64,000 bases of DNA, taken from the NCBI GenBank assembly GCA_019634955.1, contig JAHCAK010000023.1, positions 1 through 64,000 of the forward strand, written 5' to 3'. A model generated the notes under the pieces. The model saw only the letters and a list, made by a program, of their open reading frames with translations, searched no databases and was not told the DNA's origin. The DNA comes from Burkholderiales bacterium. Lineage in GTDB: Bacteria > Pseudomonadota > Gammaproteobacteria > Burkholderiales > Usitatibacteraceae. Shown in pieces: positions 7,126-21,283 of this stretch (position 1 is the first letter of the stretch; every line of letters starts with the position of its first letter). The position numbers and the translations under genes were made by a program.

Positions 7126-7617
7126 TCAGGGGGTGAGCAGGGAACGGGTTGCCCACGCGGCGGCGTAGAGCCCGAGTCCGAACACCGCGTGCGTGACGAG
7201 GCTCTGGATGCGCGCGGCGGCCGGGCGCGGCGTGCGGCTCGCGGCGATGCCTGCGCCCATCCCCGGCTGCATGAGCAGGAAGGGGGCGGCCACCGTGCCG
7301 ATGCCGACGGCAAGCGCAAGGCCGGGCGTGGGCTGCCGTGCCCAGTCGGCGCCACCGATGGCGAGCAGGATCGCGGCGAAGGCGATGCCGGTGAGGTAAT
7401 GGGCCGTCCACCCGACGAACCGCTCGCCGCGCACGGGCGGCGCCGCCTTGATGGAGTCGTGGCGGAATCGCCCGCGCGGCATGTGGGCCAGCCACCGGCC
7501 CACGAGGCCGTAGTCGGGCAGGGGCGTCGCGAGGAGGCGCCGGCGGGCGAGCGCCCACAGGTCCATCACCATCGTCGCGCCCGTGCCGGTGAGAATCCCG
7601 AAAGCGAGCAGTTCCAT
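7126..7617 (-). CDS. DUF2938 membrane protein
   Basis: A 163-residue integral membrane protein with about four spans. The family signature is seen in ILTGTGATMVMDLWALARRRLL, DYGLVGRWLAHMPRGRFRH and the late QPGMGAGIAASRTP loop. Biochemical role is unknown. The ATG at 7617 was chosen over a further-upstream start at 7671 because a GGGAGAGG ribosome site sits five bases before it and because the longer reading would run through the MerR-type operator at 7665-7684. It is divergent from the merR gene and precedes DUF2798. Confidence 0.85.
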   Translation of the reverse strand: MELLAFGILTGTGATMVMDLWALARRRLLATPLPDYGLVGRWLAHMPRGRFRHDSIKAAPPVRGERFVGWTAHYLTGIAFAAILLAIGGADWARQPTPGLALAVGIGTVAAPFLLMQPGMGAGIAASRTPRPAAARIQSLVTHAVFGLGLYAAAWATRSLLTP

Positions 7618-7664
7618 TGCCTCTCCCAGTGCTTGCCATGCATCGGCGGAGACGGCACAGTGCC

Positions 7665-7684
7665 ACTTCAAGTCAAGTTGAAGT
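7665..7684. promoter_or_regulatory. MerR-type operator dyad
   Basis: ACTTCAA (7665-7671) and TTGAAGT (7678-7684) form a perfect 7-bp inverted repeat with a 6-base spacer between the divergent merR and DUF2938 genes. On the minus strand the dyad lies between TTGACT (7687-7682) and a weak -10-like hexamer 19 bases further on, the elongated spacing typical of MerR-activated promoters. The likely binder is the adjacent MerR protein. Confidence 0.7.
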
Positions 7685-7699
7685 CAAGGGGGTGGCGGC

Positions 7700-8131
7700 A
7701 TGGACATCGCCGAGGTGGCGCAGCGCTCCGGCGTGCCGGCGTCGACGCTTCGCTTCTACGAGGAGAAGGGCCTCATCGCCTCCACCGGCCGGCGGGGGCT
7801 GCGCCGCGTGTTCGACGCCGGCGTCCTCGAGCGGCTGGCGCTCATCGCGCTGGGGCGCTCGGCCGGCTTCTCGCTCGACGAGATCGGCCGCATGTTCTCG
7901 CCCGGCAAGGGCGTGCGCATCGACCGCCGGCTGCTCGCCGCGAAGGCGGAGGAGCTGGACGGCACGATCCGCAAGCTCAGCGCCATGCGCGAGGGCCTGC
8001 TGCACGCCGCCGCGTGCCCCGCGCCGAGCCACATGGAGTGCCCGACCTTCCGCCGCCTGCTGGGGCTCGCCGGCGCGGGTGGGCTGGGCGGGCGCGACAA
8101 GAAGAAGCCTTCGTCGAAGGGGCGCTCCTGA
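7700..8131 (+). CDS. MerR family transcriptional regulator
   Basis: A 143-residue MerR protein. The N-terminal winged helix (IAEVAQRSGVPASTLRFYEE then GLRRVFDAGVLERLALI) is followed by the dimerisation helix around residues 78-100 and a C-terminal cysteine pair C106-x7-C114 (HAAACPAPSHMECPTF). That spacing equals the metal-binding loop of CueR-type sensors, so thiol or metal sensing is possible but unproven. The last 20 residues are Lys/Ser-rich. It is divergent from DUF2938-DUF2798, with a MerR-type dyad between, so it probably activates that operon and controls itself. Confidence 0.9.
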   Translation: MDIAEVAQRSGVPASTLRFYEEKGLIASTGRRGLRRVFDAGVLERLALIALGRSAGFSLDEIGRMFSPGKGVRIDRRLLAAKAEELDGTIRKLSAMREGLLHAAACPAPSHMECPTFRRLLGLAGAGGLGGRDKKKPSSKGRS

Positions 8132-20235: not shown

Positions 20236-20711
20236 GCCCGGAGCACGCGGCGCGGCTCGCCGCGCTCGCGCACGGGCGGCGCGCGGCGGCGCTGGGCACG
20301 CTGCATGCTGGCGCGCCGTTCGTGTCGATGGTGCCGTACGCGCTGCTGCCCGATGGCGGCGCGTTCGTCGTGCACGTGAGCCGGCTCGCGGGGCACACGA
20401 AGGACATGCTCGCGGACCCGCGCGTATCGCTCCTCGTCATGCAGGCCGAGGGCGAGGGCGTGGACGCGCAGGCGCTCGCGCGGCTCACCGTGCAGGGCGA
20501 GGCGCGCGAGCTGGCGAAGGGTTCCGGCGAGGAGGGCGAGTGCCGCGCCGCCTACCTCGCGCGCTTTCCGGAGGCCGAGCCGCTCACCGCCTTCGGCGAC
20601 TTCTCCTTCTTCGCGATCCGCCCGGTGCAGGCCCGCTTCGTGGCGGGGTTCGCGCAGGCCATGAGCCTCGCCGGGGAGTCGTTGTCGAGAATCCTCGCGG
20701 CCCGGGGCTGA
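20232..20711 (+). CDS. Pyridoxamine 5'-phosphate oxidase-fold (HugZ-like) protein
   Basis: A 159-residue split-barrel flavin-binding-type protein. Recognisable blocks are GRRAAALGTLHAGAPFVSMV, FVVHVSRLAGHTKDMLADPR, VSLLVMQAEGEGVDAQALAR and the C-terminal FFAIRPVQARFVAGFAQA, as in HugZ/HutZ-type heme-utilisation and related FMN-binding proteins. A heme role is only suggested by that resemblance. TTG start at 20232 (TTGA overlap with the preceding stop); the first ATG-like alternative would remove the first strand. Confidence 0.85.
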   Translation: MSPEHAARLAALAHGRRAAALGTLHAGAPFVSMVPYALLPDGGAFVVHVSRLAGHTKDMLADPRVSLLVMQAEGEGVDAQALARLTVQGEARELAKGSGEEGECRAAYLARFPEAEPLTAFGDFSFFAIRPVQARFVAGFAQAMSLAGESLSRILAARG

Positions 20712-20720
20712 ACGGCCCGC

Positions 20721-20751
20721 TTGACCTTCCCATGATGGGAGGGTTGAGACT
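20721..20751 (+). promoter_or_regulatory. CueR/MerR-type metal-responsive promoter upstream of DUF4396
   Basis: TTGACC (20721-20726) and GAGACT (20746-20751) are spaced by 19 bases, the long spacing used by MerR-family activators. Between them lies a dyad: ACCTTCCC (20724-20731) and GGGAGGGT (20737-20744), one mismatch from a perfect inverted repeat around a 5-base centre. The TTGACCTT...GGAAGGTT layout is the one known for CueR/HmrR copper promoters such as E. coli copA. The promoter points at the His-rich DUF4396 gene 32 bases downstream. Confidence 0.75.
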
Positions 20752-20782
20752 GGCGGCACCTTCACCCACGAGGAGCCTCGCC

Positions 20783-21283
20783 ATGGACCACGCCGCACAC
20801 CAAGGGCATCACGCGCATCACGGGCACGCCGCCCCCTCCGCGGCTGCGCCGTCGCTCGATCGCATCGCCTTCCTCGCCACGCTGCACTGCCTCTCCGGGT
20901 GCGCGGTGGGCGAGGTCGCCGGCATGGTGATCGGCACGGCGCTCGGGTTCTCCAACGGCGAGACGATCGCGCTGGCCGTGGCGCTTGCCTTCCTTTCCGG
21001 CTACGCGTTCACCATGCTGCCGTTGCTGCGGGCCGGCTACGGCCTGCGCGCGGCCTCGAAGCTCGCCCTTCTGGCCGACACGGCCTCGATCACGGTGATG
21101 GAGATCGTCGACAACCTCGTGATGCTCGCGATCCCCGGCGCGATGGACGCGCCGCTCGACAGCTTCCTCTTCTGGGGCAGCCTCGCCGCGGCGCTCGCGA
21201 TCGCGGGCGTGGCGGCCTTCCCGCTCAACCGCTGGCTGATCGCGCGGGGCCAGGGGCACGCCGTGGTGCACGCGCACCATTGA
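20783..21283 (+). CDS. DUF4396 membrane protein, His-rich, probably metal-regulated
   Basis: A 166-residue membrane protein of the DUF4396 family with about four helices after residue 28. Seven of the first 15 residues are histidine (positions 3, 6, 9, 10, 12, 13, 15), and the C-terminus ends with HAVVHAHH, both plausible metal-binding tails. The first helix begins LATLHCLSGCAVGEVAGM with a C-x3-C pair, and MEIVDNLVMLAIPGAMDAPL is the family core. A copper-type MerR promoter lies directly upstream. Role in copper handling is inferred from regulation and composition, not from known family biochemistry. AGGAG precedes ATG 20783. Confidence 0.85.
   Translation: MDHAAHQGHHAHHGHAAPSAAAPSLDRIAFLATLHCLSGCAVGEVAGMVIGTALGFSNGETIALAVALAFLSGYAFTMLPLLRAGYGLRAASKLALLADTASITVMEIVDNLVMLAIPGAMDAPLDSFLFWGSLAAALAIAGVAAFPLNRWLIARGQGHAVVHAHH

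Follow-up and report, generated by a model that had tools for sequence, protein, structure and literature searches.

A CueR-type promoter suggests a copper-handling role for a His-rich DUF4396 membrane protein

What switches on the gene for a small His-rich membrane protein of the uncharacterized family DUF4396, and what would the protein do for the cell? The gene lies in the window, by which we mean the whole 64,000-nucleotide stretch of Burkholderiales DNA analyzed here, and the original prediction was that a CueR/HmrR-like copper promoter drives it. Direct reading of 20721–20751 on the forward strand confirms the predicted layout: a –35 hexamer TTGACC (20721–20726), the 19-base spacer TTCCCATGATGGGAGGGTT (20727–20745), which contains most of the dyad, and a –10 hexamer GAGACT (20746–20751) of the pattern xAxxxT. 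The CueR/HmrR-type operator dyad ACCTTCCCATGATGGGAGGGT spans 21 bp (20724–20744) and reads ACCTTCCC-5-GGGAGGGT, in agreement with the published CueR signal ACCTTCCC-(5)-TGGAAGGT (spacer 19 bp) at 14 of 16 specified positions (PMC1526738). The over-long 19-bp spacing between a usable –35 and a usable –10, TTGACC-19-GAGACT, is that of the CueR/HmrR regulon. The stretch named in the original prediction opens at 20721 with this –35 hexamer; coding begins at 20783, behind a probable ribosome binding site (Shine-Dalgarno GAGGAG, 20770–20775). A single box in a single genome could in principle be a chance palindrome, or it could belong to a neighboring gene. A single complete copy of the box is present in the window, the only other match being the same site read on the reverse strand with 3 mismatches; shuffling of the 64-kb window gives an expectation of 0.00. 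The gene upstream is on the same strand and ends at 20711, and the window reveals no evident divergent gene near the promoter. The box is also kept across many genera, as described below, which contradicts a chance origin and leaves this explanation with a negligible probability.

We scanned the genome with the pattern TTGACCTT-N11-AAGGT. The three best matches have 0, 1 and 1 mismatches, all bear the dyad, and lie before copZ-copA, at a third conserved site and before the DUF4396 gene; all others have 2 mismatches and are without the inner dyad, save for the copZ box read in reverse. The best match of all precedes genes for a CopZ with an HMA domain and for the first part of CopA (L003/L036), on a contig that breaks off inside copA. 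CueR was not found in this assembly, which is 96% complete, the best score being 58 bits against a cut-off of 147. In the genomes of the three closest relatives (L039, L040, L041), copZA and the DUF4396 gene each have the box, and a full CueR gene lies directly behind copA (163–165 bits, cut-off 147). Since the contig ends inside copA and the relatives have cueR right behind that gene, cueR probably sits in the assembly gap behind copA. PF13411 brings up a single MerR-family gene in the genome, at 7700–8131 of the window; it was rejected as the regulator because it reaches only 59 bits to CueR against 147, and because it has a different dyad of its own, next to a divergent DUF2938 gene. This regulator, with a C-x7-C motif and scores below both the SoxR and the CueR cut-offs, and the DUF2938 membrane gene together occupy 7126–8131, with the dyad promoter CTTGACTTCAACTTGACTTGAAG at 7666–7688.

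A single scan of 84,980 species genomes yielded 80 homologous loci. Similarity to the window protein was the basis for collecting them, and they are not phylogenetically independent, so the counts that follow are descriptive. In a phage search, a hand-built consensus brought up one unannotated record, which is left out here. The same box, allowing at most 2 mismatches, is found upstream in 29/80 loci compared to 0/395 in Markov-resampled upstream regions, and it is 45-fold denser upstream than elsewhere within the same loci. This conservation of the dyad before DUF4396 orthologues is strong in Pseudomonadota. An alignment of 30 promoters, comprising the 29 box-bearing loci and the window, retains the –35 hexamer, and the hexamer 19 bp after it has A as its second base in all 30 and T as its sixth in 27, although the –10 bases were not used in selecting the boxes. 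A family-driven sample at the order level has the box before 9 of 11 members carrying HCxxGCxxGE and before none of 7 that belong to other DUF4396 subfamilies, whereas a wider class-level sample has it in only one of 8 matches, with a divergent CueR, and csoR lies beside two others. Because of the order-level contrast and the rarer box in the class sample, the copper link is a trait of the HCxxGC subfamily, not of DUF4396 as a whole, and it is not universal. The other subfamilies (long, WCLxGC and haloarchaeal) have the Pfam domain in common with the window protein; the order-level members tested lack HCxxGCxxGE, and a motif search found no copper neighbors beside them.

Neighboring genes within about 6 kb were called by phmmer; a regex scan missed genes. 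A CueR-like regulator (E<1e-20) lies within this distance in 17/80 loci, CopA in 10, CopZ in 9 and CsoR in 4. Overall, one or more copper links are present at 59/80 loci, and 21/80 have none within about 6 kb. Eight of 9 nearby CueR-like regulators tested reach the TIGR02044 cut-off, and the linked regulators score as CueR rather than MerR, ZntR or CadR. Three gene orders are seen around the regulator: copZ-DUF4396-copA-cueR in rhizobial (Sinorhizobium) loci (L058, L063, L065), DUF4396-cueR in Nitrosomonas and others (L042, L044, L048, L050, L059, L083, L084, L091), and copA-cueR-DUF4396 in L067.

The palindrome ATACCCC-N3-GGGGTAT (at most 1 mismatch) lies upstream of the gene in 27/80 loci, mostly actinobacterial, compared to 0/237 shuffles and a single occurrence elsewhere in the 80 loci. 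In the actinobacterial loci it agrees with the published CsoR operator consensus, ATATACCCCTNAGGGGTATAT (PMC3902906). The annotated plasmid pKRAD01 of Kineococcus radiotolerans has the order csoR-copZ-copA-DUF4396, and in two gammaproteobacteria (L148 3898–4692; L149 4849–5638) the DUF4396 gene adjoins or overlaps csoR, with no CueR box. In a quick protein tree with many weak branches, compared with the regulators over rows of known phylum, every CueR row is from Pseudomonadota and every CsoR row from Actinomycetota. That one family should be controlled by two unrelated Cu(I) sensors speaks strongly for a copper role. With the dyad conservation, the CueR linkage and the CsoR system of Actinomycetota, the prediction of an undescribed copper-handling membrane protein is well supported, and the DUF4396 protein very probably belongs to the bacterial machinery for dealing with toxic copper, as a component that has so far gone undescribed.

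The true substrate could nevertheless be another ion, such as silver, gold or mercury, or a sulfur species in the CsoR-type branch. Sulfur sensors do occur among CsoR-family relatives, and on a Streptomyces plasmid the gene has arsenic and rhodanese genes close by, with a P-ATPase and a CsoR-type gene further off. CueR is also known to respond to Ag(I) and Au(I) (PMC1526738). The scoring of the linked regulators as CueR, the CopA and CopZ partner genes and the agreement of the CueR and CsoR lines on copper all argue against another ion, which we consider very unlikely.

The gene (20783–21283, forward strand) is apparently a single-gene transcription unit and encodes 166 residues that match Pfam PF14342 (DUF4396) at 139 bits, the cut-off being 27. 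The protein features named in the original prediction can be read off directly: seven His in residues 1–15 (MDHAAHQGHHAHHGH), four in the C-terminal GHAVVHAHH, and a C-x3-C pair, C36 and C40, in helix 1. The AlphaFold2 model has four helices (25–54, 58–83, 88–116 and 128–154) with a mean pLDDT of 91.5. The mean number of K+R is 2.4 in the loop between helices 2 and 3 and 3.0 in the C-tail, whereas the two remaining loops average 0.06 and 0.01. Because positive charge is concentrated in that loop and the C-tail, both ends of the protein are most likely cytoplasmic (N-in/C-in). The predicted cytoplasmic N-tail, residues 1–23 (20783–20851), is rich in His, with a median of 4 and at least 3 in 71% of 79 homologues. 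The C-tail RGQGHAVVHAHH (21245–21280) retains H159 in 79/79, H163 in 77/79 and H166 in 73/79.

Helix 1 carries a ladder of potential ligands, H35-C36-x3-C40-x3-E44-x3-M48, together with a glycine zipper G39/G43/G47/G51 (20885–20926). H35, C36, G39, C40, G43, E44 and G47 are present in all 79 aligned homologues, M48 in 69 and G51 in 76. A polar and Met-containing face on helix 3, D99-S102-M106-E107-D110-N111-M114 (21077–21124), is also kept: D99, S102, M106, E107 and N111 are invariant (79/79), D110 occurs in 78/79 and M114 in 75/79. No solved structure in the PDB matches the protein by sequence or by fold (best Foldseek E 0.45), and structural homology to a known transporter was rejected on these grounds. 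MerC and MerT sit in the inner membrane, are small, have a Cys pair in helix 1 and lie behind promoters of the MerR family, and the DUF4396 protein resembles them in these respects. Their regulator is MerR, whereas those of DUF4396 are CueR and CsoR, and none of the 79 members matches a MerC or MerT Pfam family at E≤0.1. Ctr1 has His/Met-rich ends and a helix ligand ladder plus glycine packing, as does the DUF4396 protein, a likeness in possible working only: Ctr1 has three helices while DUF4396 has four and a Cys ladder, and no match to Ctr1 was found by Pfam, PDB sequence or Foldseek.

How might such a protein act on copper? Computation provides the promoter type and its conservation, the two sensor systems, the partner genes, the topology and the invariant ligand-type residues. 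On this basis we consider it probable that the gene is a CueR-switched copper-stress gene whose product moves Cu(I), or holds it and hands it on, at the inner membrane, lowering cytosolic Cu(I). The switch would be the Cu(I) sensor CueR, encoded behind copA in this lineage: when cytosolic Cu(I) rises, CueR seated between the over-spaced –35 and –10 would untwist the promoter, and the DUF4396 protein would be produced together with the CopZ chaperone and the CopA pump. As a four-helix inner-membrane protein with both termini in the cytoplasm, it could gather Cu(I) with its His-rich tails and carry or hold it in the membrane along the H-C-x3-C-x3-E-x3-M ladder of helix 1 and the acid/Met/Asn face of helix 3. 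A homo-oligomer packed by the glycine zipper of helix 1 is probable, as transport by so small a protein is unlikely without oligomerization. The net effect would most likely be the removal of cytosolic Cu(I), through either a small efflux permease or a membrane collector that feeds CopA. Cu(I) binding, the oligomer, transport and its direction are inferred from these features, and assignment to a class of Cu(I) transporters would rest on the ligand ladder and the regulation.

For a gene that copper excess induces alongside copA, the simplest effect is a fall in cytosolic Cu(I), which speaks for efflux or membrane buffering over uptake. We favor export of Cu(I) among the inferred functions; given that copper is handled, an efflux path has about an even chance, a non-transporting membrane buffer or CopA feeder is a lesser but substantial possibility, and uptake or delivery to cuproenzymes is rather improbable. 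Pure buffering would mean a membrane-anchored Cu(I) chaperone whose His tails and Cys/Met ladder bind the ion and hand it to CopA with no transport of its own. The frequent pairing of copA and copZ with DUF4396, the His-rich cytoplasmic tails, the joining of CopA and DUF4396 in one open reading frame at L071 and the absence of a transporter fold match are all consistent with this. However, the invariant acidic and Met residues along the helices exceed what a surface chelator needs, and copA is often not nearby, though it may lie elsewhere in the genome; considering all readings, we regard a pure buffer as unlikely, though a serious contender. An importer or a delivery factor for cuproenzymes, induced during redistribution under copper load, would fit a longer, divergent DUF4396 gene in Caballeronia that directly precedes coxB-ctaD, with a multicopper oxidase nearby. 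Against it, the promoters are of the excess-copper response type and not the starvation type, a motif search around two other long-form members found no cox genes, and this long subfamily lacks the motif and the box of the window subfamily. We therefore consider import or delivery quite unlikely overall. The Caballeronia plasmid locus (L187 4761–9092) hints at a copper link in another subfamily. A general tie of the long form to cytochrome oxidase was rejected, being seen at this one locus and not at two other long-form loci.

Returning to Cu(I) export, we tentatively propose that the HCxxGCxxGE subfamily may be a Cu(I) transporter family of its own, new to science, whose small proteins have four helices, assemble as glycine-zipper oligomers with a Cys-Cys-Glu-Met ladder and are controlled by CueR in Proteobacteria and CsoR in Actinobacteria. 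With DUF4396, a copper regulon of known type gains a new component; the system as such is not new in kind. It has the operator, 19-bp spacer and regulator of the CueR/HmrR regulon (copA, copZ, cueO) and often shares an operon with it, but is not among the known products of that regulon and is absent from the members named in the text of Permina 2006 (PMC1526738). With the actinobacterial CsoR regulon (csoR, copZ-copA) it shares ATACCCC-N3-GGGGTAT, and csoR, copZ or copA is sometimes adjacent; the CsoR operators of S. lividans precede csoR, copZA1 and copZA2, and none precedes a DUF4396 gene (PMC3902906).

No copper role for DUF4396 was found in the open-access papers that use this family name. 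The open literature searched names the family once, in passing, where the gene flanks a metal-resistance cluster of Acidihalobacter, and does not mention PF14342 by name; the passages returned from the Kineococcus copper proteome paper contain nothing on the DUF4396 gene. As the family is named only as flanking a metal cluster, we regard its copper assignment as unpublished within this literature. The assignment gives an uncharacterized membrane family, present in several phyla and with a predicted fold that has no PDB match, a testable copper function. It also suggests an overlooked membrane component of the CueR and CsoR regulons beside CopA and CopZ, with a bearing on how bacteria cope with copper from hosts, agriculture and mining.

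Three further loci carry related arrangements. In a Thermoleophilaceae MAG (L071 3652–7482), CopA, DUF4396 and a C-terminal extension form one open frame of 1276 aa, with a CsoR-like box inside the CopA/DUF4396 linker; the joined frame is a fusion or the result of a lost stop. An order-level match (L027) has a partial DUF4396 in frame with MerR-like sequence behind a CueR box, likely a decayed DUF4396-cueR pair. The third CueR-type promoter of the genome, TTGACCTTCCCATCATGGGAAGGC (L002 1501–1524; G000:C3:94374–94397, minus strand), is identical in two relatives (L161, L166) and is followed by a conserved leader and then GGAGG-CCCATG. No conserved ORF lies behind it, and a transcript from it would enter a tetR-family gene in antisense orientation; the product is possibly a copper-induced antisense RNA or a tiny ORF.
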